From: Terriglobia bacterium
Lineage (GTDB): Bacteria > Acidobacteriota > Terriglobia > Terriglobales > Acidobacteriaceae
Assembly (NCBI GenBank): GCA_020073165.1
Contig: JAIQFP010000001.1
Span: forward strand, 1 to 64,000
Direction: 5' to 3'
Length of the DNA stretch: 64,000 nt
The stretch's first letter is position 1; every line of letters begins with the position of its first letter. Position numbers and translations under genes: made by a program. The notes under the pieces were generated by a model, which saw only the letters and a list, made by a program, of their open reading frames with translations, made no database searches and was not told the DNA's origin. Positions 16,890 to 31,186 of this stretch are shown piece by piece.

Positions 16890-19800
16890 GTGAAGGCAGA
16901 CGCACAGTCACCTCACCTTATTCGCTTTGAGTCGTTCGAGGTAAACCTCCGCTCTGGAGAGTTACGCCGGGACGGAGAAAGACTCAGGCTGCCCGAGCAA
17001 TCGTTCCTGATTCTGACAATGTTGCTGGAGCGCCCCGGCGAAGTGGTCATGCGGGAGGAAATCCAGAAGAGACTCTGGCCGAATGATACGGTCGTCGAGT
17101 TCGAAAACAGCATCAACGCCGCGGTCAAGCGGCTGCGGTTGGCCCTGGAGGACTCCGCCGACCAGCCCCGCTACATCGAGACCCTGGCGCGCCGCGGATA
17201 CCGCTGGATGGTTCGGGTCGAGCGCAGCGCGGATCCCGCCCCGCCGCTGGGTGAAGCTACATCCCCGCGCGCCCAGGCACAGCCGCCCACCTCGAACCTG
17301 ATTGGCAGACTGGTGTCGCACTATCGAGTGTTGGAAATTCTAGGCGGCGGAGGCATGGGCATCGTCTATCGGGCGGAAGATGTCAAGCTGGGCCGGTCGG
17401 TGGCGTTGAAGTTCCTCCCCGAAGAAATGGCTGACGACCTTAATGCCATGCGGCGCTTCGAGCGCGAGGCTCGGACCGCTTCCGCGTTGAACCATCCCGG
17501 GATCTGCACCATCTACGAGATTGAAGAGGACAACGGGCAACCCTTCATCGTGATGGAACTGCTGAAAGGGCAGACGTTGCGGGAATTGATTGAAGCAGCC
17601 GGCTCTGATCCTCTGCCCGTGCCCAAGGTTCTGGACTTGGCGAAACAAATCGTTGCGGCGTTGGACGCAGCTCACAGCCATGGCATCATTCATCGCGACA
17701 TCAAGCCAGCGAACATCCACGTGACCGCGCCGGGACAGGCGAAGATTCTGGACTTTGGCCTGGCCAAGTTGCAGGGTGCCGAGACTTCGGACGTCCATTC
17801 TTCTCCACCAACCGGGCCGCAGCCCCAGGACCTGTCCCTGAGTCGCTCGGGTGAGGCGATGGGCACCGCGGGCTACATGTCACCGGAACAGGTGCGTGGT
17901 GAGAAACTGGACGCGCGCGCCGACATCTACTCCTTTGGATTGGTTCTGTACGAGATGGCCACAGGCCGGCGTGCGTTCATGGGCGACAGCATCTCGAAAT
18001 TGCATGCTGCCATCCTCGAACAGGAACCGGTGCCCACGCGCAAGCTGAATCCGCGAATCCCGGCAGCCCTGGACACGGTCATCACCACGGCCATGCAGAA
18101 GGATCGGGAAGCACGCTATCCCTCGGCCGCCCGGATGCTGGAAGCGCTTAAAGCTGTGGAAGTGGGAGGCGCCCCGATTGCCGTACTCGCTCCGCAGGCC
18201 GTCATCTCCGAAGAGAAGAAGCGGCAGCCCAGGAAGATCTGGAAGGCTCTGGTGGTGGCCGCGGTCGCTTTGGCTGTGGTGGTTGGGGCGTACTATGTGC
18301 GCCAGCGGCAAGCAACGCGACTCACCGCCCAGGACACCATCGTGCTGGCCGACTTTGCCAATTCCACCGGGGACCCGGTGTTTGACGACACGCTCAAGCA
18401 AGCTACCCGTGTCGCGCTGCGGCAATCGCCGTTTCTGAACATTCTGTCCGACCGGGACGTGCATTCGACACTTAAGCTGATGACCCGGCCACCCAACACC
18501 GCCCTGACTCCTGATATTGCTCGCGAGCTATGTCAACGCGCGGGCAGCAAAGCCTATGTCGCCGGGGCGATCGGTACTCTAGGCAGCGAGTATGTGCTGG
18601 GTCTGAAGGCGGTGAACTGCCTCAGCGGAAGCATACTGTCTGAACAACGCGTCACCGCTGCCGATAAGGACAAAGTGCTGGATGCGCTCGGCGACGCGGT
18701 CTCGCGCCTGCGGAGCGCATTGGGCGAATCGCTGGTGACCGTCCAGACCTTCGACGTGCCCCTGCCGCACGCAACTACCGTGTCTCTGGAAGCTCTTAAG
18801 GCGTACACGCTGGGAAACAGGACCGGACGCGATAAAGGGCCGAACGCCGCTCTTCCTTATTACTTGCGCGCGGTCCAGTTGGATCCCAACTTCGCTATGG
18901 TCTATTTGAACATGGGCAGCGCGTACACGATGTTGGGTCAGAGTGAGAGAGCGAGCGAGTACTTTACCCGGGCCTATCAGTTGCGCGATCACGCCACGGA
19001 GCGCGAGAGCCTCATTATTTCCGGAATTTACCAGTTTGGCGTGAATGGCGATCTGGAGAGCGCCATTGAAGCCTACAAGAAGACGATTCAAAACTACCCG
19101 AACGAATTGCCCACCGCTGTAGAATTGGCGACAGCATACGCGCGCCTGGGCAAATACGACAAAGCCATCGACATCATGACACGCCGCCAGCTCGACGACG
19201 TCAATTACTATGAAGGTCTCGGCCGATGGTATGTGTCCGTGCAGCGATTTGCCGACGCAAAGAATGCGGTGCAGCAAGCGCAGTCACGGAAACTGGATAG
19301 CGGCCCCTTACGCCTGTTGTTGTATGCCATGGCCTTTCTGGAAGGGGACGCGCACGAAATGCAGGAGGAGATGTCCTGGCTGAAAGCACTGCCCGGCGCC
19401 ACCGACCAAGTATCGTCGATCCAGGCCGACACCGAGTCCGTGGCCGGCCATCTCTCGAAGGCCGACACACTTATCAATCAAGCGGTCGAATTCGCGCTCA
19501 AGACTAATGATGACAGGGAGGGCGCCGGCCTTCTCTTGGGGAACTCTGCGCTGCGCGAAGCTGAGTTCGGAGACTTGGTCCATGCGCGTCAGGACTCAGT
19601 GCGGGCGCTGAAGGTTGCCCCCGGAAGCCGGGTCAGTGAAGTCGAGGCGGCTCTCGCGTTGGCGATGGCTGGTGACGCAGAGTCCGCGAGGTCGGTGCAG
19701 CAGGACCTCAAGGAGCGGTTCCCGTCCGACACTCAAGTGCAGTCCCTTTGGTTGCCGACCATCGCTGCTCAAGTGGCGCTCGGGCAGCCCAGGCCGGCTG

Positions 19801-20183
19801 CGGCTATCGATCTCCTTCAGAACGCCACCCAGTTCGAGCTAGGTTATCTCCCTAACGGGCAAGCCACCTCCTGTCTGCACACGGTCTACGTCCGTGGCCA
19901 AGCCTATCTTGTGCAAGGGGACGGTCGTGCGGCCGCTGGCGAGTTCCAGAAAATCTTGGATCATAACGGAATCGTGTGGAACTGTCCGACGGGAGCGCTG
20001 GCACATCTGGGGCTGGCGCGGGCCAATGCTTTGCAGGCACGAACCGAGCAAGGAGCCGCCGCCGACGCCGCCCGCACTCGCGCCCTCGCTGCTTACCAGG
20101 ACTTCTTCACTCTTTGGAAAGACGCCGATCCTGACATCCCCATCCTTAAGCAAGCTAAGGTTGAGTTCGCCAAGCTGCAGTAG
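16890..20183 (+). CDS. winged-helix / Ser-Thr kinase / TPR regulator
   Basis: A 1097-aa multidomain protein starting at GTG 16890. Residues 10-110 form an OmpR/CadC-type winged-helix DNA-binding domain (FESFEVNLRSGELRRDG ... RYIETLARRGYRW). Residues 145-420 are a PknB-like kinase: glycine loop LGGGGMGIVY (151-160), Lys174 in VALKF, HRD 268-270 with KPAN, DFG 288-290 and [10 protein letters not shown]. One membrane helix lies at about 450-470. The rest has TPR-like repeats (AMVYLNMGSAYTMLGQSERA). DNA-binding, kinase and membrane segments on one chain imply a membrane-anchored transcription regulator, as in CadC. Targets unknown; the adjacent divergent secreted-protein genes are candidates. Confidence 0.9.
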   Translation: MKADAQSPHLIRFESFEVNLRSGELRRDGERLRLPEQSFLILTMLLERPGEVVMREEIQKRLWPNDTVVEFENSINAAVKRLRLALEDSADQPRYIETLARRGYRWMVRVERSADPAPPLGEATSPRAQAQPPTSNLIGRLVSHYRVLEILGGGGMGIVYRAEDVKLGRSVALKFLPEEMADDLNAMRRFEREARTASALNHPGICTIYEIEEDNGQPFIVMELLKGQTLRELIEAAGSDPLPVPKVLDLAKQIVAALDAAHSHGIIHRDIKPANIHVTAPGQAKILDFGLAKLQGAETSDVHSSPPTGPQPQDLSLSRSGEAMGTAGYMSPEQVRGEKLDARADIYSFGLVLYEMATGRRAFMGDSISKLHAAILEQEPVPTRKLNPRIPAALDTVITTAMQKDREARYPSAARMLEALKAVEVGGAPIAVLAPQAVISEEKKRQPRKIWKALVVAAVALAVVVGAYYVRQRQATRLTAQDTIVLADFANSTGDPVFDDTLKQATRVALRQSPFLNILSDRDVHSTLKLMTRPPNTALTPDIARELCQRAGSKAYVAGAIGTLGSEYVLGLKAVNCLSGSILSEQRVTAADKDKVLDALGDAVSRLRSALGESLVTVQTFDVPLPHATTVSLEALKAYTLGNRTGRDKGPNAALPYYLRAVQLDPNFAMVYLNMGSAYTMLGQSERASEYFTRAYQLRDHATERESLIISGIYQFGVNGDLESAIEAYKKTIQNYPNELPTAVELATAYARLGKYDKAIDIMTRRQLDDVNYYEGLGRWYVSVQRFADAKNAVQQAQSRKLDSGPLRLLLYAMAFLEGDAHEMQEEMSWLKALPGATDQVSSIQADTESVAGHLSKADTLINQAVEFALKTNDDREGAGLLLGNSALREAEFGDLVHARQDSVRALKVAPGSRVSEVEAALALAMAGDAESARSVQQDLKERFPSDTQVQSLWLPTIAAQVALGQPRPAAAIDLLQNATQFELGYLPNGQATSCLHTVYVRGQAYLVQGDGRAAAGEFQKILDHNGIVWNCPTGALAHLGLARANALQARTEQGAAADAARTRALAAYQDFFTLWKDADPDIPILKQAKVEFAKLQ

Positions 20184-20243: not shown

Positions 20244-20320
20244 TGGTCGGGGCGCGCGGATTTGAACCGCGGACCCCCTGCGCCCAAGGCAGGTGCGCTA
20301 CCAGGCTGCGCTACGCCCCG
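20244..20320 (-). tRNA. tRNA-Pro (UGG)
   Basis: Full cloverleaf on the minus strand: acceptor CGGGGCG pairs CGCCCCG, anticodon stem CCTGC/GCAGG with loop CTTGGGC (anticodon TGG), T arm with GGTTCAAATCC, and an encoded 3' CCA at 20246-20244. 77 nt including CCA. Confidence 0.95.
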
Positions 20321-20342
20321 ACTCTGTGGAGGGCTCGTTTTG

Positions 20343-20348
20343 ATTATA
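20343..20348 (-). promoter_or_regulatory. -10 box for tRNA-Pro
   Basis: Perfect TATAAT on the minus strand, 23 bp before the tRNA 5' end. The -35 region is GC-rich and poorly matched. Confidence 0.5.
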
Positions 20349-20407
20349 GCCGACCATGGGGTTGGCGGTTGCGCACCGGCGGCAACAACTCTTCCGCTCG
20401 GGCAAGG

Positions 20408-20413
20408 TATAAT
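20408..20413 (+). promoter_or_regulatory. -10 box for the 2H-phosphoesterase gene, probably leaderless
   Basis: TATAAT ends 11 bp before the ATG at 20425. Initiation about 7 nt downstream would give a leader of about 5 nt, and there is no Shine-Dalgarno before the ATG. Both fit a leaderless transcript. Confidence 0.45.
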
Positions 20414-20424
20414 CGCAAGCGACC

Positions 20425-20979
20425 ATGCAACATCCCCGCTACGCCCTGGTGACCTATGTGAGGAATCCGGTCGGGGAATTCGTCCAGCGCCTGCGCCAGG
20501 AACTGCATCCTGCGCTGCCCCATTTAGCAGCCCACCTGACCATCCTGCCCCCACGTCTGCTGCGGGGTAGCGAGTTTTCGGCCCTGGAGCTGTTGGAAGA
20601 CGTCTGCGCTCAGGTGAGTCCCTTCGAGATCACTTTGGGCGACGTGGAGACCTTTGTGCCTGCGACCCCCACCGTGTTCATCCGTGTGGCTCAGGACGCC
20701 GATCGCCTGCACGCATTGCATGACCGGCTGGGCACCAAGGTGCTGGCTTCCGCCGAGGAGTGGCCCTACATGCCGCACCTCACCATTGTGAAGATGAGCA
20801 CCGAGGCCCAGGCGGAGGAGGCCTACATCGTCGCCCGCGATCGCTGGGCCCAATTCGAGGGCAGCCGGCGGGTACAGATTAAGCAACTCACCTTCGTTCG
20901 CGAACAAGAAGAAAACCGATGGGTGGATTTGGCCGGGGTTCCGCTGGGCCGCACCTTGGTCTCTCCGCTCAACCGTTAA
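20425..20979 (+). CDS. 2H phosphoesterase (2'-5' RNA ligase family) protein
   Basis: A 184-aa protein with the two HxT motifs of the 2H superfamily, HLTILPPR near residue 33 and HLTIVKM near residue 117, about 80 residues apart as expected. The two histidines normally act as acid and base on 2',3'-cyclic or 2'-5' phosphodiesters; ThpR/LigT relatives process RNA ends. The natural substrate is unknown. The start lacks a ribosome-binding site and lies 11 bp after a TATAAT, suggesting leaderless translation. Lone gene between tRNA-Pro and the dehydrogenase homologue. Confidence 0.82.
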   Translation: MQHPRYALVTYVRNPVGEFVQRLRQELHPALPHLAAHLTILPPRLLRGSEFSALELLEDVCAQVSPFEITLGDVETFVPATPTVFIRVAQDADRLHALHDRLGTKVLASAEEWPYMPHLTIVKMSTEAQAEEAYIVARDRWAQFEGSRRVQIKQLTFVREQEENRWVDLAGVPLGRTLVSPLNR

Positions 20980-21186
20980 CCCGCGTTTCCCGACCTCTCC
21001 CATGTCTTTCATCCCGACCGTTTTGCGCGTTTGCACGATAGTCCCTGGCCGGAAGTACATGCGCCTAAGGTGCGTTGCCAAGGTTGGCAGCCGGGCGTAA
21101 ACAAAGAAGTGGGGGTTCGGGCGATGCGGCCAGACGCCCCTTCCCCAGCGGGTTTCCGGGGTCTGTAGGCGGGTCGGGGGGCCTTT

Positions 21187-22455
21187 ATGCAGATCGGGGT
21201 GTACGGGTCAGGGTACCTGGGCACAGTGATTTCAGCTTGTCTCGCGGACTTTGGCACCCCCGTCATTTGCTGTCACCCCGACAGCTCCCGCATGGTGGAA
21301 ATGGCCCAGGGCAATGTCCCCTTTTTCGAGAAGAACTTGACCGAAGTCATCAAGCGCAACGTGCGCTCCGGCCGGCTGGCATACTCCACCGACATGGAGT
21401 CATTTGCCCGTAAAGCGCGGGTGATTTTCCTGGCCGAGGATACGCCCCAGCATCTCGCTGACCTCGCCCTGCGCATCGCGCGCCTGGCGGTGAAGCCTCC
21501 AGTTCTTTCCGTGGTCACTCCGGTTTCGGTGGGTACGGCCTGCGGCATTGAGAAGCAATTGCGGGACGCCGGTCTGCACGCCATCCTGGTTTCGCAACCC
21601 ATGTTCTTCACCCCGGGCTGTGCGGTCGAAGACTTCAACTGGCCGGATCGCATCATTCTGGGGACGGCCTCCAATGATGCAGTGCTGGCCATCAAGCAGA
21701 TCTTTCATCCCCTGGTGATGCGCGGGGTGCCGGTGATCGTCACCAACCACGAGACCGCCGAACTGATTCGGGAAGCAGCCACCGCCTTCGTAGCCACGAA
21801 AATTTCCTTCATCAATGAAGTGGCCAGCCTGTGTGAACGGGTGAACGCCGATGCGGTCAACCTCTCCCTGGCCCTCGGACTGGACAAGAAAATCGCTCCC
21901 CGCTGCTTGCAGCCGGGAGCCGGCATGGGCGGGTTGTTCGCCGAGTCGGACATGGACTCGCTGGCTGAACTGGCGACGGAGAACGGGGTTTCACTCAAGG
22001 TGCTGAGCGCGGCCCGCGAAGTGAATCACAACCTGGCCGAGCGCCTGGTGGACAAGATCTCCAACGTCGTAGCTTCTGTGCAGAACAAAGATGTTGGCAT
22101 TCTGGGCCTGGCATTCAAGCCGAACACGAATTCAGTGGCCGGCTCCTCGTCGGTGCGTCTGGCGCAGAGTCTGATCGCCAAAGGCGCCCGCGTGCGTGCT
22201 TACGATCCAGTGGCCATTCCGGAAGCCCGCATGGAACTGAACGGCACCATCTGTTACTGTGAATCCGCTTACGCTGCCGCCGAGGGTGTGGACGCGCTGG
22301 TGGTGGGCACCGGCTGGCCGGAATTCCGCGCGCTCGACTTCGACCGCATCAAGCACTTGCTCAAGCGTCCCGTGATTGTCGACACCAAGAACCTGCTCGA
22401 CTCCGTCCGCCTCCGCGCCATGGGATTTGAATACGTAGGCGTGGGACGGGGCTAG
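21187..22455 (+). CDS. UDP-sugar dehydrogenase homologue lacking catalytic residues
   Basis: A 422-aa protein with full UDP-glucose/GDP-mannose dehydrogenase architecture: Rossmann motif GVYGSGYLG (4-12), central helix ATKISFINEVASLCE (203-217) and a C-terminal UDP-binding domain (GLAFKPNTNSVAG, 307-319; RVRAYDPVA). Aligned from memory to S. pyogenes UDP-glucose dehydrogenase, Glu141 and Glu145 become Met139 and Pro143 (PMFFTPG instead of PEFLREG), Lys204 becomes Arg195, Asn208 becomes Thr199, catalytic Cys260 becomes Phe251 (GMGGLFAESD instead of GFGGSCFPKD), and Thr118 is also lost. Only the Asp264 equivalent (Asp255) remains. The frame is intact, so this is a conserved pseudoenzyme or a changed reaction, not decay. 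G-rich ribosome-binding site upstream. Confidence 0.85.
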   Translation: MQIGVYGSGYLGTVISACLADFGTPVICCHPDSSRMVEMAQGNVPFFEKNLTEVIKRNVRSGRLAYSTDMESFARKARVIFLAEDTPQHLADLALRIARLAVKPPVLSVVTPVSVGTACGIEKQLRDAGLHAILVSQPMFFTPGCAVEDFNWPDRIILGTASNDAVLAIKQIFHPLVMRGVPVIVTNHETAELIREAATAFVATKISFINEVASLCERVNADAVNLSLALGLDKKIAPRCLQPGAGMGGLFAESDMDSLAELATENGVSLKVLSAAREVNHNLAERLVDKISNVVASVQNKDVGILGLAFKPNTNSVAGSSSVRLAQSLIAKGARVRAYDPVAIPEARMELNGTICYCESAYAAAEGVDALVVGTGWPEFRALDFDRIKHLLKRPVIVDTKNLLDSVRLRAMGFEYVGVGRG

Positions 22456-22525
22456 GCGTGGTTGCATCCATTGGTATTTTCAGCCTGAAGCACGAGCATT
22501 TTGACTCCTGCCTTGACGGGGGCTT

Positions 22526-22555
22526 CTGACAGGCTTCCGCGCGAGTTGTTATAAT
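22526..22555 (+). promoter_or_regulatory. promoter of tRNA-His
   Basis: CTGACA at 22526-22531, an 18-bp spacer and TATAAT at 22550-22555, ending about 11 bp before the tRNA 5' end. A good sigma-70-type promoter. Confidence 0.7.
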
Positions 22556-22566
22556 CGAGAACGTCT

Positions 22567-22643
22567 GGTGGGAGTAGCTCAACTGGCAGAGCACCGGACT
22601 GTGGCTCCGGTTGTTGCGGGTTCGATTCCCGTCTCCCACCCCA
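22567..22643 (+). tRNA. tRNA-His (GUG)
   Basis: Acceptor GTGGGAG (22568-22574) pairs CTCCCAC (22633-22639). The extra 5' G at 22567 faces C73 at 22640, the tRNA-His hallmark. Anticodon loop carries GTG within GGACTGTGGCTCC, T arm GGGTTCGATTCCC, and CCA is encoded at 22641-22643. Confidence 0.95.
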
Positions 22644-22787
22644 ACCTGTTGTCCCCTCTTCCAACGGCCATGTAAGGGTTGACGGCGCTCACGGCATGGA
22701 GCCCGCAATCGCCAGCAACCCAGTTAGCGCGCTACAGCGACCGTGCTATATTTACACCCTTCCCCCAAGCAACAGCGGAGGTGCGTC

Positions 22788-23735
22788 ATGGCTGAAGCCT
22801 TACGCCCGATGTCCACCAGCGAGCTGTTGGACCGTACATTTACCCTGTACCGCAGGAACTTTCTGTTGTTCGCTGGCATCGCTAGCATTGGTCCGGCCGC
22901 CTATCTCTTATTTCAGCTGATGCTAGTGGGTGCGGCTGGAATGCCGGCTGGCCGCACGCCTGCAAGAACCGCATGGGCGGGAGCTTCCATCGGCATCGGC
23001 TTCGTGGTGGGGGCGCTAGTGATGCTGGCGGGGATGGCTCTCTCGCAGGCCGCGACCGTCAAGGCGGTCGCGGCCGTGCATCTTGGACGCGAAACCACAA
23101 TCGGCGGGGCCTACCGCTCGCTCAAAGGGCGCATCCCCCGGATTCTGGGAATCTTCTTTACCGTCACCCTGCTGATCGTCGGAGGAGGTATCGTGTTGTT
23201 GGCGCTGGCTTCCTTGATCACCGTGCTGGCCGTTGGCGGTGGCATGAAGGCGGGTACCGGCTTTGGCATCGCCGGAGGAATCGTGGGGTTGGTGGTGATT
23301 GTCGCCGCAGCGATCGGCGCGGTCACCATCTTTGTGCGCTATTCGCTGGCCGTGCAGGCCTGCGTTGTCGAGGATCTGAAGATCAGGCCATCCCTCAAGC
23401 GCAGTGCGTTTCTCAGCAAGGGCAGCCGCAGCCGCATTCTGACTGTGTACACCGTCTTCGTTGTCCTTAGCTGGATCGTGGCCTTTGGCTTGGTGATGCT
23501 GACCAGTATGCTGGCGGCGATTACGGGGCCAGGAATTCCGGCGCTCATCGCGACCTACCTTGCCAGCTTTCTGAGTGGCGTCCTGACCGGCCCCCTGGCG
23601 ACCATTGGCATGTCGCTGGTGTACTACGATGAACGCGTCCGCAAGGAAGCCTTTGATCTTCAGCTAATCATGGCGGGCCTGGACACTCCGGCAGCAGCGC
23701 CGGCAGCAGCGCCGGCCAGCGCGGGATTACAGTAA
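22788..23735 (+). CDS. integral membrane protein, start of MoxR cluster
   Basis: A 315-aa protein from the ATG at 22788, which has GGAGG upstream (an earlier in-frame ATG lacks one). It begins LRPMSTSELLDRTFTLYRRN, the motif that opens a family of six-helix membrane proteins found beside MoxR clusters and in Gram-positive glycerophosphoryldiester phosphodiesterase membrane domains. Helices lie at about 30-50, 70-95, 120-150, 160-185, 215-240 and 250-280. The C-terminus has an Ala/Pro repeat (APAAAPASA). Function unknown; its stop is 4 bp before the DUF4129 gene. Confidence 0.75.
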   Translation: MAEALRPMSTSELLDRTFTLYRRNFLLFAGIASIGPAAYLLFQLMLVGAAGMPAGRTPARTAWAGASIGIGFVVGALVMLAGMALSQAATVKAVAAVHLGRETTIGGAYRSLKGRIPRILGIFFTVTLLIVGGGIVLLALASLITVLAVGGGMKAGTGFGIAGGIVGLVVIVAAAIGAVTIFVRYSLAVQACVVEDLKIRPSLKRSAFLSKGSRSRILTVYTVFVVLSWIVAFGLVMLTSMLAAITGPGIPALIATYLASFLSGVLTGPLATIGMSLVYYDERVRKEAFDLQLIMAGLDTPAAAPAAAPASAGLQ

Positions 23736-23739
23736 GCGA

Positions 23740-24702
23740 ATGACGGCCTCTTTGCTGCGCTTTGTCGGCTTGCTGGCGCTGCTCAGTCCTGCCGGCTGGG
23801 CCTATGCGTCGGATGCCTCTCCGCTGACCATTGCGCAATACGTCGAGCGCCTGCGCGCCTACCAGGCCGGTGTCCGCGACCTCGCAACCGCCCCGCAGCA
23901 CGCATCGGACCTGTACCAAACCATCCCCGAAGAACTCATGGTGCGCGGTGCGCACGGCGAAGTATCCGTCCCCACCGCCTTTCTGCGCGACGGAATCATC
24001 CGTTTTCAGAAGGCGGCTCCCAAGGTCAAGCCGGGAATCGTTTCGGCGCTGGGCCAGCGGCTCGACGTGATGTGCGAAGAAGCCCAGGCGTTCGACCAAC
24101 CCAGCCGGGCCGATGACAAACTGCGCGCGAAGCTGGACCAGATTCTCTCGGCGAGGGAGTTCAGCGCCGTCCATGGCCCTGCCGCCTGGGAGGTCCTGCG
24201 CGACCGGATCTATGCCTGGCTTGACCGCCAGTTCAAGAAGATGGACCCGCATCTTCCGAAGTTCTCCGATGTCGGCCAGATCACAGTGTGGATTCTGATC
24301 GCCGTAGCATGCGCGGTGCTCGGCGTCTGGCTCTTCCGCATCTCGCGGCAGCGCCTGGCCGAGAGACCGCGGGAAATCATTCCCTTTGCACCTTCGGACA
24401 AAAGCTGGAGGGTGTGGCTGGCGGAGGCCCGCCGGAAAGCCTCCGCGGGAGAGTGGCGGGAAGCTATCCACGCGGCGTATTGGGCTGCGGTTTCGCGCCT
24501 GGAGGCGGAAGGACTCTGGCGTCCTGACCGTGCGCGCACGCCGCGAGAATACTTGAACGCTATCCCGGCCACCAACCAGGCACGGACTCCGTTCGCAGCC
24601 CTGACGGGAAGATTCGAAGCAATCTGGTACGGCAACCGTCCCAGCTCAGAGGGTGACTTCTCTCAGTTCGTGACAGAGTTGGAGAAACTCGGATGCCGAT
24701 GA
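23740..24702 (+). CDS. DUF4129 domain protein
   Basis: A 320-aa protein with an N-terminal signal or anchor (LRFVGLLALLSPAGWAYA), an exported section (about 30-180), one membrane helix (about 186-202, TVWILIAVACAVLGVWLF) and a cytosolic DUF4129 tail (about 215-320). The tail has AIHAAYWAAVSRLEAEGLWR and ARTPREYLNAIPATNQARTP, the conserved core of that domain, often attached to transglutaminase-like proteins. Overlaps the next gene by 10 bp. Unknown role; conserved neighbours suggest one membrane complex. Confidence 0.83.
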   Translation: MTASLLRFVGLLALLSPAGWAYASDASPLTIAQYVERLRAYQAGVRDLATAPQHASDLYQTIPEELMVRGAHGEVSVPTAFLRDGIIRFQKAAPKVKPGIVSALGQRLDVMCEEAQAFDQPSRADDKLRAKLDQILSAREFSAVHGPAAWEVLRDRIYAWLDRQFKKMDPHLPKFSDVGQITVWILIAVACAVLGVWLFRISRQRLAERPREIIPFAPSDKSWRVWLAEARRKASAGEWREAIHAAYWAAVSRLEAEGLWRPDRARTPREYLNAIPATNQARTPFAALTGRFEAIWYGNRPSSEGDFSQFVTELEKLGCR

Positions 24703-25901
24703 ATCTCCGGCAAAATCGAGGCCTGATCGTTGCTGCGGCCGGTGTGTTCCTGGTCATCGTTTTGATGGCGGTGCTCGGTTCGCGGAAGGAAGAGGGAGAC
24801 GGCAGCCCGTCCAGCTATTCCACCCTGCGGCGCGGCGGCAAAGCAGCGTTTCAGTTGCTTGCGCAGGCCGGCTACCCGGTGGAGCGGTGGGAGGATTCTC
24901 CACAGAAGTTGCCCCAGAAAGCGAACGACACGCTCTTGATCGTCGCCGAGCCCGAGTCCTTCCCCACGTCCCAGGAGCAAGGTGCAATCGGACGCTTCAT
25001 CCTTAGAGGTGGAGGCGTTCTTCTCGTGGGTGTGCAACCCCATTGGTTCGTGCCGCGGTCGTCCGCCAGCCAATTCGTGACCCGAGTCGGGTACGAGGAA
25101 TGCAAACCGGTCGCTCCTACCCAACTGACGCGGGGCGGTGCGATTTCCCAGGACGGCAACCTCGGTTGGGACTACATCGATGAGTCGCAAGTTGTGCACT
25201 ACGCCGACGGGGATGGAAAGCCGGTGGTCGTTTCCTATCGCCTGGGCCAGGGCAACGTGATCTGGTGGGCCAGCCCGGTGCCTTTGATCAATTCCGGGAT
25301 CCGCGACAAGGGGAATTTGGATCTGCTGCTTAATTCCATCGGCGACCGCCGCCACGTGCTTTGGGACGAGTATTATCATGGCCATCGCGCCAGCGAGGTA
25401 TTGCAGGGATCGATGGCCGCGCTGAGGTGGGGCGGCCTGCAGCTTGGCGTCGTGGGCATCGTGCTGCTGCTCACCTTCTCCCGGCGGAACGGCCCGATCG
25501 TACCCCTGGTCCAGGATGCACGGCTGTCGCCCTTTGAGTTCGTCGAAACGCTGGGGAGCGTGTTTCATCGCGCTCAGGGACGGCAGGTTGCGGTCGAGAT
25601 TGCCAACGACAGGTTTCGCCAGATTGCTGCCCGCAGGCTCGGCCTTCGCGGGCATGCCGGCGGCCCGGATGTCGTGCGGGCCATGCGTCTGCACGGCTTC
25701 GAAGTCACCTCCGAAATCGAGCATGCGATCCTGTCGAGCAAGGATGCAGGCTCCGATATAGATTTGTCGGAACACGCCGCGATCGACTACGTCCGTCGCC
25801 TGAACCAGGCGTCTGCCATAGTCCGGCCGGGCGCGGGCAAGGGAAAGGAAAAACCACTGGATGCAGGCCATCACACGCCTTCTCAGCCACGGCCGCAATG
25901 A
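24693..25901 (+). CDS. DUF4350 domain protein
   Basis: A 402-aa protein. One N-terminal membrane helix (GLIVAAAGVFLVIVLMAVLG), an extracytoplasmic DUF4350 domain (SYSTLRRGGKAAFQLLAQAG ... YPVERWED ... RFILRGGGVLLVG, about 37-240) related to the GldG/ABC-auxiliary fold, a second helix near 250-265 (LQLGVVGIVLLLTFSRRNGP) and a cytosolic tail. The family accompanies MoxR-DUF58-DUF4129 clusters. Overlaps the upstream gene by 10 bp and the MoxR gene by 41 bp, a strong sign of translational coupling. Confidence 0.83.
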   Translation: MPMNLRQNRGLIVAAAGVFLVIVLMAVLGSRKEEGDGSPSSYSTLRRGGKAAFQLLAQAGYPVERWEDSPQKLPQKANDTLLIVAEPESFPTSQEQGAIGRFILRGGGVLLVGVQPHWFVPRSSASQFVTRVGYEECKPVAPTQLTRGGAISQDGNLGWDYIDESQVVHYADGDGKPVVVSYRLGQGNVIWWASPVPLINSGIRDKGNLDLLLNSIGDRRHVLWDEYYHGHRASEVLQGSMAALRWGGLQLGVVGIVLLLTFSRRNGPIVPLVQDARLSPFEFVETLGSVFHRAQGRQVAVEIANDRFRQIAARRLGLRGHAGGPDVVRAMRLHGFEVTSEIEHAILSSKDAGSDIDLSEHAAIDYVRRLNQASAIVRPGAGKGKEKPLDAGHHTPSQPRPQ

Positions 25902-26808
25902 GCTGGCCAAGGTCATCGTCGGCCAAACCGAACTCGTGGACGGTGTCATGGTCGCGTTGCTTTGCGGCGGGCACGCGCTCATTGAGGGCGTCCCCGGGTT
26001 GGCCAAGACCCTCTGCGTAAAAGTCCTCGCGCGTATCTTGAGCGTCGGCTTCCAGCGCGTGCAATGTACCTCGGACTTGATGCCCGCGGATTTGCTCGGC
26101 ACCAATGTCCTGAACCTCTCAAGCGGAACGTTTTCTCTGCATCGGGGCCCGTTATTCACCGATCTTCTGCTGGTGGATGAGATCAACCGTATGCCTCCCC
26201 GCACCCAGGCTTCGCTGCTGGAGTCGATGGAGGAGCGCCAGATCACGATTGACGGAACCAGACATCCGCTCTCGGACTTCTTTACCGTGCTGGCCACGCA
26301 AAATCCGATTGAGTTTGAGGGTACCTACCCCCTGCCTGAGGCGCAGCTCGACCGTTTTCTGCTCAAGCTGAAAGTCGGCTATCCCAGCATGGAGGAAGAG
26401 ATTCGGATCGTCGAGATGCACGAGGGCACCACCGAGGCGGTGGACCTGAATAGCCTGGCCTTGCAGGCGATCGACAGCGAAATCCTGCGCCAGGCCCGGC
26501 AGGAGCTGCGCAGCCTGCGCGTAGAGCCATCTCTTCTGCGTTACATCACCGAGATCGCCCGCCGCACCCGCAACTGGCCGGCGGTTTCCCTGGGGGCCAG
26601 TCCGCGCGCCGCCGTCAGCCTCATGCTGGTGTCCAAAGCGTTGGCGGCCACCAGTGGACGGGATTACGTCATCCCCGATGATGTGAAAGCTGCCACCCTG
26701 CCTTCGCTGCGCCACCGCGTCGTGTTACGTCCGGAGGCTGAATTAGAGGGCCTGGACACGGATCGTGTACTCACCGAAGTTCTGGCCGCAGTCGAGGTAC
26801 CCAAGTGA
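25861..26808 (+). CDS. MoxR-family AAA+ ATPase
   Basis: A 315-aa AAA+ ATPase with Walker A GVPGLAKT (43-50), Walker B LLVDEINR with MPPRTQASLLESMEERQ following, and sensor-1-like VLATQNPIEFEGTYPLPEAQ then LDRFLLK. This is the APE2220/general MoxR branch rather than RavA. MoxR ATPases act as chaperones that assemble or activate partner complexes, often paired with a VWA-like DUF58 protein, as here: the DUF58 gene starts within its stop codon. The ATG sits 40 bp inside the end of the DUF4350 gene. Confidence 0.92.
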   Translation: MQAITRLLSHGRNELAKVIVGQTELVDGVMVALLCGGHALIEGVPGLAKTLCVKVLARILSVGFQRVQCTSDLMPADLLGTNVLNLSSGTFSLHRGPLFTDLLLVDEINRMPPRTQASLLESMEERQITIDGTRHPLSDFFTVLATQNPIEFEGTYPLPEAQLDRFLLKLKVGYPSMEEEIRIVEMHEGTTEAVDLNSLALQAIDSEILRQARQELRSLRVEPSLLRYITEIARRTRNWPAVSLGASPRAAVSLMLVSKALAATSGRDYVIPDDVKAATLPSLRHRVVLRPEAELEGLDTDRVLTEVLAAVEVPK

Positions 26809-28184
26809 GTATCCCGCAACCGCTCGCCGCGCCCGCGGTCGAGGAAGTAGCGGTTAGGAGCAAGCGCATGGGCGGAGGTGCGGGCCACAGGCTCTTCGTC
26901 CTCGCGCTCGCCGGGCTGGCCTGGATCATTCCCGCGTTATGGAATCCCACCTTTCTTTATGGATTGCTCGTCTGGGATGCTCTGCTTGCCGCCGCGTACG
27001 CCATCGACTGGCTGCGGCTGCCGCGCCCACAACAGCTTCGGATTCGCCGCCAGTGGCAGACCCCGCTCTCCATCGGCGCCCCCTGCCAGCTGTCGCTTGT
27101 AGTCGAGAATGATTCGACTGTGGATCTGCGCATCGTCGCCACTGATGACCTGCCGGTGTCGCGCTGGCACACGCCCCAGCCGCTGGCGTTACTGGCCCCG
27201 GCCGGACAGTCCGCCAGCGTGTCCTGCTCTTACACTCCGAGTCAAAGAGGCGACCTCGCTGTCGGCCAGGTTTACCTCCGCTATCGCACCGCCTTTGACA
27301 TGGCCGAGAAGTGGGCCAAGGTCGATCTGCGTCAGACCGTCCGTGTCTATCCCAATTTTGAGCACGCCAGGAAGCACGCTGTCTACCTGGCGCGCAGCCG
27401 CCAGATTGAAATGCAGATGCGCATGATACGCATGCGTGGCATCGGCTCCAATTTCGAAAGCCTGCGCGACTACCTCGAGGGCGACGAACTACGGAATGTG
27501 TGCTGGACCGCCTCTGCACGGCGGGGAAAGCTGGTCACCAAGACCTACCAGGTGGAACGCAGCCAGGCAGTCTGGCTGGTGCTGGACTGCGGCCGCCTGA
27601 TGCGGGCCCGCACTGAGGGTTACAGCAAGCTCGATCGTGCGGTGGACGCGGCACTCTGCCTGACCCAATTGGCGCTCTATTCCGGCGATCGTGTCGCCCT
27701 GCTCAGCTACGGGCGCGGTATCAATCAGCGGGTCATGCCCGGACGGGGCGCGACTCAACTGCGGTACCTGGTCGAACAGCTGGCCGTCGTCCGCGAGGAA
27801 GCCCCGGAAGCGGACCACACTCGTGCAGCCGCCACCCTGATGTCGCTGCAGAAGCGGCGCGGACTGGTGATCTGGATCACGGACCTCGCCGAAAGCGCCA
27901 TGACCCCGGAGGTCATCCAGGCCGCCGGACACCTGTTGTCTCGGCACTTGCTGCTGTTCTTGGTAATGGAGCATACGGAAATCAAGCGCCGTGCGGCAGA
28001 CATCCCCGCCTCGGCGGAGGACATGTACGAGGTGGTAGCTGCGCAGGAGGTGGTCTACCGGCGAGAGCTGTTACTGGGACGGTTGCGCGAGCGCGGGGCC
28101 TTCTGCCTGGAAGTTGCCCCGGCACAGCTCTCCGCGGCAATCCTGAACCAATATCTCTCCATCAAGGAACGGAATCTGGTCTAG
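26805..28184 (+). CDS. DUF58 (VWA-like) protein
   Basis: A 459-aa membrane protein starting at GTG 26805, which overlaps the MoxR stop (GTGA). Two N-terminal helices (about 25-62, LFVLALAGLAWIIPALW) precede a beta-sandwich section and the DUF58 hallmark NFESLRDYLEGDELRNVCWT followed by ASARRGKLV. The C-terminal VWA-like fold starts VWLVLDCGRLM. In a true MIDAS site this would be DxSxS; here it is D-C-G-R-L, so metal binding is doubtful. Probable MoxR client or adaptor. Its 3' end overlaps the convergent SpoIIM gene by 23 bp. Confidence 0.87.
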   Translation: MSIPQPLAAPAVEEVAVRSKRMGGGAGHRLFVLALAGLAWIIPALWNPTFLYGLLVWDALLAAAYAIDWLRLPRPQQLRIRRQWQTPLSIGAPCQLSLVVENDSTVDLRIVATDDLPVSRWHTPQPLALLAPAGQSASVSCSYTPSQRGDLAVGQVYLRYRTAFDMAEKWAKVDLRQTVRVYPNFEHARKHAVYLARSRQIEMQMRMIRMRGIGSNFESLRDYLEGDELRNVCWTASARRGKLVTKTYQVERSQAVWLVLDCGRLMRARTEGYSKLDRAVDAALCLTQLALYSGDRVALLSYGRGINQRVMPGRGATQLRYLVEQLAVVREEAPEADHTRAAATLMSLQKRRGLVIWITDLAESAMTPEVIQAAGHLLSRHLLLFLVMEHTEIKRRAADIPASAEDMYEVVAAQEVVYRRELLLGRLRERGAFCLEVAPAQLSAAILNQYLSIKERNLV

Positions 28185-29127
28185 CCGGCGCGCCCAGGAA
28201 AGCATAAGCAACGAACAACCCGAACAACACCGCGGCGGCGGTGAACTTTAAAAACACGGGCGCGCCTGAAGGTGAAAAGAACGCCTCGAGAATGCCCGCC
28301 ACGATCAGCATAGGGATCACTCCCACCAGCAGCTTCACCGCCTCGGTTCCTCCCAGGGCGAGGGAGTCACGACGCGAACGCACGCCGGGAAAAAGCAATG
28401 CCTGCGCCAACCGCAGGCCCGCGCCTCCTGCGATGAATATGGCAGGCAACTCAAGCACACCATGCGGCGCTACAAAGCTCCAGAGCGGCACGCTCATGTC
28501 GGAGAACCAGCACGCTACCCCAATCACCCCCAGCATGATGCCGTTGAAAAACAGCATGTAAATCGTGCCGAGGCCGGCACTGATGCCGAGGGCGAAGGTA
28601 ACAAACGCCACCGACATGTTATTAGTCATAATGGCGCTGGAGGTCTGCGGTTTCACTGACAGGATGGAGTGGGTCCACATCTCGTGGCGCTCGATGGTCG
28701 TTACCATCTGCGGCCCGAGAAACGAGCGCATGAACTCAGGGTGGGAGAGGGTCATGAGCATTCCCACCAGGGCCCCGGCGGCAAACAGTGCGGTAGCCCC
28801 TGCGGTGTAGGGCAGCAGCCTGCGAAACATCTGCGGGTATTCGCGTGCGTAGAAGTGCACAATTCCGTTTATACTTTTGCGCCGGCCCCGGTAGATTGCA
28901 TTGTGGGCGTGCCCCAGCAACTGGTTGAGGTAGCGCGCCTGCTGGGGGCTGCCGGAGTCGCCGCGGACGGTGGACAGGTCCGTCGCCACCTGCCGGTAGA
29001 GCAGACCGAGTTCGCGTAACTCGCTGCGATTCAGAGAGCGCAGCCCGTCGCGCTGTACTTGCGCTAACAGCGCTTCCAGCCGTGACCAGTACACTTGCCG
29101 GGTTTTGAGCCAGGAAACGGAGAGCAT
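28162..29127 (-). CDS. SpoIIM (stage II sporulation protein M) family membrane protein
   Basis: A 321-aa protein with a soluble N-terminal helical region (WSRLEALLAQVQRDGLRSLN ... YRQVATDLSTVRGD, about 12-55) and about six membrane helices from residue 105 on (LLPYTAGATALFAAGALVGM, GVACWFSDMSVPLWSFVAPH). HGVLELPAIFIAGGAGLRLA is the most conserved SpoIIM segment. The organism need not sporulate; SpoIIM homologues are common in MoxR/RDD clusters. It is the only minus-strand member: convergent with DUF58 (23-bp overlap) and head-to-head with RDD, the two start codons 2 bp apart. Confidence 0.87.
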   Translation of the reverse strand: MLSVSWLKTRQVYWSRLEALLAQVQRDGLRSLNRSELRELGLLYRQVATDLSTVRGDSGSPQQARYLNQLLGHAHNAIYRGRRKSINGIVHFYAREYPQMFRRLLPYTAGATALFAAGALVGMLMTLSHPEFMRSFLGPQMVTTIERHEMWTHSILSVKPQTSSAIMTNNMSVAFVTFALGISAGLGTIYMLFFNGIMLGVIGVACWFSDMSVPLWSFVAPHGVLELPAIFIAGGAGLRLAQALLFPGVRSRRDSLALGGTEAVKLLVGVIPMLIVAGILEAFFSPSGAPVFLKFTAAAVLFGLFVAYAFLGAPARPDSVP

Positions 29128-29129
29128 CG

Positions 29130-29891
29130 TTGGACCCGAGTGAAAAGCTTACCATCGAAACCCCCGAGCAGATTGCCTTGGAATTCCCGCTCGCGGGATT
29201 GGGGAGCCGTGCCCTGGCCCTGCTGTACGACAGCCTGATCCAGTTCATCGCAGCCTTGGTCATCTTCATCGCCATGGCGCTCATTAAACCGGATCTTTCC
29301 GCGCACTGGGCCGCGGCCAACAATTGGGTGATCGCCCTCGAGGTATTCGGCGCCTTCTGCCTGTACTGGGGCTATTTCACACTCTTCGAGGCCTTCTGGA
29401 ATGGACAGACCCCCGGCAAGCGCCACGCCAAAATCCGCGTCATCAGCGACAGCGGCCGCCCCATTACGGTATTCGAGGCCATCGCCAGGAATTTCCTTCG
29501 CGTAGTGGATTCGTTAGGCGGATATTTCGTCGGCTGCGTTGCCATCGCCGTCGACAAGCGCAACCGCAGGCTGGGCGACATGGTGGCCGGCACGGTGGTC
29601 GTCCACGAGGTGGAGCGGCAGTCGGAGCAATATTGGTATTCCGCTGAACAGACCGGCACACCCCCATGGGGGCAGGTGGTGACCACGCTCACCATGGCCG
29701 AGTTTCAGCTCATTGAAACCTTCCTGAGCCGCCGGCTTGATCTGCCGCTGGAACGCCGTCAACAAGCCGCTCAAGAGATCGCCGCTCGCATTGGCGCCCG
29801 CTTGAACGTAGCCGCCCCGGGGCGCCCATCGGATGAAACTTTCCTTGAAGAAGTGGCTCGGCTGTTCCGTGACAACACCCGATACCGCTGA
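29130..29891 (+). CDS. RDD family membrane protein
   Basis: A 253-aa protein with an N-terminal RDD domain: EFPLAGLGSRALALLYDSLI gives the R..D motif, two helices follow (about 30-55 and 65-85), then WNGQTPGKRHAKIRVISDSG, the second RDD signature, and a third helix (DSLGGYFVGCVAIAV). The C-terminal 90 residues are soluble and helical. RDD proteins are putative ion or osmolyte channels or transporters; some Na+/H+ exchange is reported in the family. The start is TTG at 29130, with GGAGAG about 6 bases upstream on the plus strand. Confidence 0.84.
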   Translation: MDPSEKLTIETPEQIALEFPLAGLGSRALALLYDSLIQFIAALVIFIAMALIKPDLSAHWAAANNWVIALEVFGAFCLYWGYFTLFEAFWNGQTPGKRHAKIRVISDSGRPITVFEAIARNFLRVVDSLGGYFVGCVAIAVDKRNRRLGDMVAGTVVVHEVERQSEQYWYSAEQTGTPPWGQVVTTLTMAEFQLIETFLSRRLDLPLERRQQAAQEIAARIGARLNVAAPGRPSDETFLEEVARLFRDNTRYR

Positions 29892-30043: not shown

Positions 30044-30793
30044 ATGTTGCTCGTCTTTTACGTCTTGATGTTGTTGGCCAGTGTCTGCCTCGTTCTTCTC
30101 ATGCCGACGCTCTGGGGCCGGGAAATCTACGTCCACTTTCGGGGAAGCCGGGCGGTGACTTGTCCCGAAACTCGCCAACAGGTGGCGGTGAACTTCGACG
30201 CCCTGCATGCGGCCGTAAGCGGGATGGGCGGAAGATCCAAATTGCGCCTCGCCGGTTGCACTCGCTGGCCCGAGCGCGCGGATTGCGGCCAGGACTGCAT
30301 CCCGGAAGCGACCCGAACCGCACAGTACACGCAAGGCGAGGCCGCTCCTCGGCGGACCAGCAAGATCTACCACCTTCCCGTACTCATTGCTGTCGCTGCA
30401 GCCTGGGTCTTCGGATTGGTCTGGCACTCGGAGTACCTGTTTCGCAGGGGATGGGAGGAAGTGCTCAGAGTCGATTCCTCGCAAATGCGCCAAGTCGTCG
30501 AGTGGCTGTCTCCCCACCTGCTGAGTGTGGGGGTCCTCCTTCTGTTTGCCTATGGCGTGGCCTGGCTCCTCACGCTAGGCGGAAGGAAAGGTGCCGGGTG
30601 GGGAGTTCTCACCGCAACCTCGCTGTGGGCCGCAGTTATTCTAGCCAGCTTGCTGGTCACGGGTGTAGCTGGAATGCCGCGGGATTTGCTGCGAATTGAG
30701 GCAGCGTACACCCTGTTGGCGAGCGTCGTCATCGGAGCCATCATCGGTGGGCTGAACGGGAAACTAGTAGAGGAAATGTTCCATGAAGCCTAA
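30044..30793 (+). CDS. membrane protein with N-terminal Cys motif, function unknown
   Basis: A 249-aa protein. A first membrane helix (VLMLLASVCLVLLMPTLW) is followed by CPETRQQVAV and, 30 residues on, GCTRWPERADCGQDC, giving four or five cysteines as C-x(n)-CxxWPExxxCxxxC. Four more helices follow (about 107-125, 165-182, 195-212, 225-242). The CPET/WPE..C pattern recurs in uncharacterised acidobacterial membrane proteins to my recollection and may bind a metal or cluster. No start-specific ribosome-binding site stands out before ATG 30044. Follows the RDD gene by 152 bp on the same strand. Confidence 0.7.
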   Translation: MLLVFYVLMLLASVCLVLLMPTLWGREIYVHFRGSRAVTCPETRQQVAVNFDALHAAVSGMGGRSKLRLAGCTRWPERADCGQDCIPEATRTAQYTQGEAAPRRTSKIYHLPVLIAVAAAWVFGLVWHSEYLFRRGWEEVLRVDSSQMRQVVEWLSPHLLSVGVLLLFAYGVAWLLTLGGRKGAGWGVLTATSLWAAVILASLLVTGVAGMPRDLLRIEAAYTLLASVVIGAIIGGLNGKLVEEMFHEA

Positions 30794-30862
30794 GGCGTTG
30801 CGCACAGGATGGAAGGACTTGCACATCCCCAAGTCGCACCTATGTCCTCAGGGGGAGGGCCT

Positions 30863-31186
30863 ATGAAAAGGAGCGTTGTTCTGCTGGTGTTGTTGGCCGC
30901 AGCGGTAGTGCTGTTGGCCCAAGAGAAGTCCCCAATCACCGTCAAGGAAAGCACGGTCATGACCGGGGTGGTGGTCGTCACCGCGGAGATGGCGGGCAGA
31001 CCGCTGGAGCTGCAATGCAACCAGTCTATGGCCGCCTGCACCGCGCTGAAGCCGGGAGAGTACTGGATGGTGCGGCTTCCCAAGAACCACGGGATGTATG
31101 ACTGCGCCAACGTTGATCTGTTTCCCAAGTCGGCGGATCCGGAAACCAGTGAAAAGATTGGCGAGTACTGTCTGACCCAGAAGTAG
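30863..31186 (+). CDS. small secreted protein, unknown function
   Basis: A 107-aa protein from ATG 30863, which has GGGGGAGGG 4-5 bases upstream; an in-frame ATG at 30809 lacks such a site. A signal peptide (MKRSVVLLVLLAAAVVLLAQ) is followed by a mainly beta domain containing LQCNQSMAACTALKPGEYWM, YDCANVDLF and EYCLTQK: four cysteines, possibly two disulfides. I do not recognise the family. It lies 70 bp after the preceding membrane protein. Confidence 0.65.
   Translation: MKRSVVLLVLLAAAVVLLAQEKSPITVKESTVMTGVVVVTAEMAGRPLELQCNQSMAACTALKPGEYWMVRLPKNHGMYDCANVDLFPKSADPETSEKIGEYCLTQK

Follow-up and report, generated by a model that had tools for sequence, protein, structure and literature searches.

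Results

Genes and features of the locus

The window analysed here, the whole stretch of 64 000 nt, contains an ORF that starts with ATG, has no internal stops and encodes a protein of 422 aa resembling UDP-glucose 6-dehydrogenase (UGDH). The DNA is acidobacterial, its nearest named relatives being metagenome-assembled genomes of Terriglobia, Acidobacteriaceae and Sulfotelmatobacter. The UGDH-like gene and its usual upstream neighbour, a gene for a LigT-like 2H phosphoesterase, are flanked by genes for tRNA-Pro and tRNA-His in most relatives (Table 1). The Pfam families PF03721, PF00984 and PF03720 all scored above their gathering cut-offs and together cover the full length of the protein, which thus has the N-terminal NAD-binding, central and C-terminal UDP-binding domains of the nucleotide-sugar dehydrogenase superfamily, and solved UGDHs matched it from end to end (best match 4a7p, E 9e-87). 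This bears out the earlier claim, made from the sequence alone, that two Rossmann domains and the linker helix are conserved. The protein passed the cut-off of the NCBIfam subfamily ‘nucleotide sugar dehydrogenase’ (TIGR03026; 280 bits vs 189.8) and failed the equivalog cut-off for UDP-glucose 6-dehydrogenase TuaD (NF047673; 322 bits vs 700). By homology it is therefore a member of the superfamily; judged by the residues compared below, it fails as an active dehydrogenase.

Table 1. Genes, promoter region and altered motifs at the UGDH-like locus (positions in the window)
Feature	Position	Strand	Evidence
tRNA-Pro(TGG), conserved micro-locus edge	20244..20320	-	
LigT-like 2H phosphoesterase (PF13563), usual upstream neighbour, separable	20425..20979	+	Same strand 118/118, median gap 211 nt
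Promoter region of UGDH-like gene: GTACATG-type element, TTGC (-35-like), TAAACA (-10-like)	21055..21103	+	80/97 upstream regions score at least 17/25
UGDH-like protein of 422 aa lacking the dehydrogenase catalytic set	21187..22455	+	ORF, translation; Pfam PF03721/PF00984/PF03720; 94 distinct orthologous proteins
E84-D85-T86-P87 replacing V-G-T-P, then 9-residue deletion (NAD+ side)	21436..21447	+	E84 87/94, D85 94/94; canonical V, G 44/44
T111-P112 replacing Ser117-Thr118	21517..21522	+	P112 94/94 orthologues; Thr 44/44 canonical
QPMFFTPGC motif (137-145): Glu141 to M139, Glu145 to P143, new invariant Cys145	21595..21621	+	C145 94/94; canonical E139 44/44
R195...T199 replacing Lys204...Asn208, linker helix	21769..21783	+	R195 93/94, T199 94/94; canonical K, N 44/44
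R239-C240-L-Q242, new invariants in substrate loop	21901..21912	+	R239 94/94, C240 93/94, Q242 94/94; canonical F at 240 44/44
GGLFAESD replacing GGSCFPKD: Cys260 to F251, Lys to S254, Asp264 = D255	21928..21951	+	F251 94/94, E253 86/94, D255 91/94; canonical C 44/44, P 43/44, K 44/44
K311 (Lys320) kept; N315-S316-V-A318 replacing D-D-x-R, Arg327 lost	22117..22140	+	K311 94/94 and 44/44; A318 90/94 vs R 44/44
tRNA-His(GTG), conserved micro-locus edge	22568..22643	+	

Replacement of catalytic and cofactor residues

Residues are numbered as in Streptococcus pyogenes UGDH, following a published analysis that assigned roles to 18 residues invariant across 229 nucleotide-sugar dehydrogenases, among them Thr118, Glu141, Lys204 and Asn208 (PMC4794789). 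In that analysis Cys260 is the nucleophile, Asp264 the general base, Thr118 a water helper, Lys204 and Asn208 are oxyanion residues and Glu141 holds a loop; Asp29 and Arg327 contact NAD+, the latter at its pyrophosphate, Lys320 contacts the substrate diphosphate and Gly257 the ribose, and Glu145 is conserved less strictly than the 18 invariants (PMC4794789). The numbering was transferred through anchor positions (P140 = P138, E201 = E192, N219 = N210, G257/G258 = G248/G249 and K320 = K311), with no gaps inside any motif. From these followed S117-T118 = T111-P112, P140-E141 = P138-M139 and E145 = P143; E201-K204-N208-N219 = E192-R195-T199-N210; and G257-G258-C260-D264 = G248-G249-F251-D255 and K320-R327-S329 = K311-A318-S320. 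Misalignment or a shifted motif was ruled out, as the spacing inside each motif equals the published numbering exactly.

The sequence-only reading had listed six residues as replaced, and on this spacing all six losses hold: Thr118 is P112, Glu141 is M139, Glu145 is P143, Lys204 is R195, Asn208 is T199 and Cys260 is F251. The list was nevertheless incomplete, as both NAD+ contacts are replaced as well (Asp29 by H30, Arg327 by A318), Arg244 is K235, Ser117 is Thr, and VGTP has become EDTP, after which nine residues are deleted. The accompanying statement that only Asp264 remains was correct in that Asp264 is retained as D255, but too narrow, as Tyr10, Glu201, Asn219, Gly257/258, Asn287 and Lys320 are kept too, along with Gly7/9/12 and Pro140. 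Thr83 is present in the window protein and varies among orthologues. Of the residues that mark an active NDP-sugar 6-dehydrogenase, Asp264, Lys320 and Gly257 are present, whereas Cys260, the group Thr118/Glu141/Lys204/Asn208 and the pair Asp29/Arg327 are absent.

When 94 distinct orthologous proteins were compared with 44 canonical relatives, 60 positions were fixed alike and 23 fixed differently, many of the latter at active-site motifs. The altered motifs are thus conserved among homologues, which had been proposed as a check, and since the replacements are shared by the 94 proteins and are mostly invariant, the residue pattern is not due to chance. Position 139, Glu in the canonical proteins, is M, V, L, I or T in the orthologues. 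The shortening falls between residues 85 and 112, where 93 of the 94 orthologues have nine residues fewer than 42 of the 44 canonical proteins. At the Asp29 site the window protein and 79/94 orthologues have His (H30) and 11/94 have Asp, and G248 (Gly257) is kept in 92/94. The substrate loop no longer has the canonical aromatics (F at 240, F/Y at 247), and new near-invariant residues have appeared in the orthologues at D85, P112, C145, N151-W152, M178-R179-G180, R195, T199, K234, R239, C240, Q242, F251 and E253.

Distribution and selection

Within the same family, 108 of 300 genomes and 44 of 79 genera carry orthologues at 59–96% identity, none of them interrupted by stops, which rules out an oddity of one genome. 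Matches outside the family, among those listed for 396 genomes across the phylum, had at most 43% identity; canonical relatives likewise reach at most 43%, leaving a gap between 59% and 43%. In a maximum-likelihood tree a branch 1.53 changes per site long (SH-aLRT 100) separates the orthologues, as one group, from the remaining sequences, and the median dN/dS over 31 close orthologue pairs was approximately 0.04. Read from these sequences, the long stem and later conservation are those of a burst of change followed by constraint. The impression that the open frame is under selection was therefore sound, resting now on purifying selection in a single clade with altered motifs fixed in 94 sequences; random decay into a pseudogene is ruled out by the open frames in all relatives, the dN/dS of 0.04 and the fixed motifs. 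On balance, and as one part of the joint explanation given below, we favour a neofunctionalised paralogue of the nucleotide-sugar dehydrogenases that would have arisen once, within one Terriglobia family.

A promoter element of the UGDH-like gene

Upstream of the UGDH-like gene a layout is conserved in which GTACATGTCC is followed, after about 10 bases, by TTGC and, after about 20 more, by TANATA. A palindromic core, ACATGT, lies within GTACATGTAC/GTACATGTCC, about 17 bases upstream of the -35-like TTGC, and this promoter-proximal palindrome looks like a candidate binding site for a regulator. The element is present where the UGDH-like gene stands alone and absent at loci with LigT only, so that the UGDH-like gene probably has independent transcription; the element also precedes the gene in L193, L194, L195 and L196. 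Among the matches listed for 14 genomes, those with no mismatch lay only upstream of the UGDH-like gene, and a regulon sharing the element was rejected on that ground. A search for RNA elements upstream of the gene gave no Rfam match except two tRNAs.

Predicted structure and nearest known systems

The AlphaFold2 model of the UGDH-like protein had a pLDDT of 90.5 and a pTM of 0.82, with the lowest pLDDT (61–64) at hinge-loop residues 231–250. UGDHs ranked first in a Foldseek search with this model; on realignment the best structural match was 1mfz, the GDP-mannose 6-dehydrogenase of Pseudomonas aeruginosa (Z 35.0, rmsd 2.5 Å, 406 residues), whose domains are arranged as predicted in the monomer model, at only 24% identity to the protein. 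UGDHs fitted the model only with domains displaced (rmsd approx. 20 Å), whereas a model of the canonical paralogue of the same genome (L031:8180-9526), made as a control, fitted 4a7p at Z 50.5 and rmsd 1.3 Å. In these monomer models the UGDH-like protein has its C-terminal domain placed as in 1mfz, and the canonical paralogue adopts the closed form of UgdG. This suggests that the C-terminal domain may be swapped or loosened in the UGDH-like protein, although a monomer model whose hinge is weakly predicted falls short of proof.

The best full-length sequence match, UgdG, the UDP-glucose 6-dehydrogenase of Sphingomonas elodea (4a7p), shares the three-domain plan but keeps the KST, NPEFLREG, K...N, GGSCFPKD and DDxR motifs, all of which are replaced in the UGDH-like protein, and differs from it in where the C-terminal domain is predicted to lie (rmsd approx. 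21 Å). According to the published alignment, the GDP-mannose 6-dehydrogenase family also retains the Cys, Lys, Asn, Thr set (PMC4794789). BceC (2y0c-e) and human UGDH have in common with the UGDH-like protein the fold, the nucleotide side formed by Lys320 and Gly257 and the Tyr10 equivalent; unlike them, the UGDH-like clade has no equivalents of the nucleophilic Cys, Arg327 and Thr118.

Discussion

The UGDH-like clade has very probably taken on a job different from sugar oxidation. With Cys260 gone, neither a thiohemiacetal nor a thioester could form at that place; with Thr118, Lys204 and Asn208 gone, the first oxidation would be unsupported; and with Arg327 and Asp29 gone and an invariant Asp in the VGTP loop, weak binding of NAD+ would be expected. 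The side of the site serving the nucleotide-sugar diphosphate (Lys320 and Gly257, with Arg244 changed to Lys) persists, together with the two Rossmann domains and the linker helix. Most likely, the protein would bind a nucleotide or nucleotide sugar and carry out no oxidation, with Arg195 possibly facing the sugar or uronate end; uridine binding is uncertain as well, since the substrate-loop aromatics are replaced. That the rebuilt pocket is so strictly conserved points to a ligand of some kind, and would suit one that is converted as well as one that is simply bound.

Our preferred reading, in which we place moderate confidence, is that this is a neofunctionalised member of the superfamily, of single origin, which would no longer be an NAD+-dependent nucleotide-sugar (four-electron) dehydrogenase and which would act as a sensor or regulatory binding protein, likely a non-redox one whose ligand is a nucleotide or nucleotide sugar. 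The regulatory or sensor pseudoenzyme put forward as one candidate by the sequence-only reading fits the residue pattern well. Oxidation would be covered elsewhere in most carriers, as 99 of the 108 carrier genomes, G000 included, have a canonical UGDH motif. There is, however, no conserved partner gene that points to a regulated target, and the rebuilt pocket shows the strict conservation of an active site, which would fit a new catalytic function too.

Such a function is the content of the foremost alternative, which we regard as possible but hold only tentatively. The old catalytic and cofactor apparatus would have been exchanged for a new invariant set (Cys145, Cys240, Arg195, Thr199, Arg239, Gln242, Phe251 and Glu253, plus the retained Asp255) that would carry out a reaction, probably non-redox and new to the superfamily, on a nucleotide or nucleotide sugar. 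Many old and new positions in the pocket motifs are near-invariant in the 94 orthologues, more strictly than would be expected of a plain scaffold, and the equivalents of Asp264 and Lys320 persist; against this, neither a known reaction nor any neighbouring gene hints at a substrate.

Continued dehydrogenase activity with altered residues or another cofactor, be it through a shifted cysteine, NADP+ or another nucleotide-sugar substrate, is unlikely. It would account for the retention of GxGxxG and Tyr10, the invariance of Cys145 and Cys240 and the TIGR03026 score, but Arg327, Thr118 and Asp29 (the last in 84% of orthologues) are replaced, D85 is invariant where canonical proteins have Gly, and the adjoining loop carries a deletion. 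The second candidate of the earlier reading, a dehydrogenase using other residues, is for these reasons disfavoured as an NAD+ enzyme.

Pseudoenzymes that form hetero-oligomers are familiar from other families, and the UGDH-like protein might be a dead subunit, joining the cell's canonical UGDH in a complex and regulating it. The co-occurrence of the two in most carriers would agree with this, and the canonical GGxC(F/L)PKD motif is present in 277 of the 300 family genomes. However, the motif is missing in nine of the 108 carriers, including G022, G076, G107 and G135, which are 98–100% complete, so that an obligate complex is unlikely; the only other relative in G022 is a distant match of 25%, and it is the pocket, not surfaces alone, that is conserved. 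We judge a dead subunit very improbable.

Returning to the preferred reading of a binding protein derived from a dehydrogenase, we found in the open-licence literature no characterised subfamily with the same changes, and no relevant paper on a UGDH-family pseudoenzyme, a missing catalytic cysteine, an inactive homologue or the clade itself. Neither a known dehydrogenase activity with this motif nor a characterised subfamily of this type, the two findings named beforehand as contradicting the sequence-only reading, was encountered in the literature searched. As far as that literature shows, this would be the first well-supported clade of nucleotide-sugar dehydrogenases in which the dehydrogenase residues are lost and the rebuilt pocket is strictly conserved, and roughly one in three of the genomes sampled from a large family of soil acidobacteria carries it. 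It offers a clean natural experiment on the conversion of a four-electron dehydrogenase site. Since the protein passes the TIGR03026 cut-off, pathway reconstructions can count a false enzyme; genomes such as G022 and G076, which have no canonical motif, could through it be miscalled as makers of UDP-glucuronate.

The LigT-like gene is the only conserved neighbour of the UGDH-like gene, no third one being found within approximately 5 kb. The two genes are adjacent wherever both occur (118/118 loci), and they co-occur strongly, both being present in 92 of 300 genomes (92 of the 108 carriers), one without the other in 16 and 15 and neither in 177, an odds ratio of 68 that is uncorrected for phylogeny. 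That they form a functional pair is nonetheless scarcely credible, as genera g58 and g62 have the UGDH-like gene without LigT and at another place, g63 and g71 have LigT alone near tRNA-Pro and/or tRNA-His, the UGDH-like gene's own promoter element travels with it, and shared ancestry of the locus, from which the linkage was probably inherited, accounts for the association. The UGDH-like protein is not an obligate partner of the canonical UGDH or of the LigT-like gene.

The tRNA-Pro/LigT/tRNA-His micro-locus (20244–22643 in the window; L188, L192) persists across genera even without the UGDH-like gene. In G007 (L037:5552-10675) approximately 4.6 kb separate LigT from the UGDH-like gene and include a gene homologous to that for the large kinase/TPR regulator in the window (16890–20183). 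Just past tRNA-His, the window carries a DUF4129/DUF4350/MoxR/DUF58/SpoIIM/RDD gene cluster (22743–29891). In G001, a genome of the same genus (91% complete), the genes at 30044–31186 come directly after tRNA-His and a DUF58 homologue was not found, an arrangement which suggests that the DUF4129-to-RDD cluster was gained or lost at this tRNA gene.
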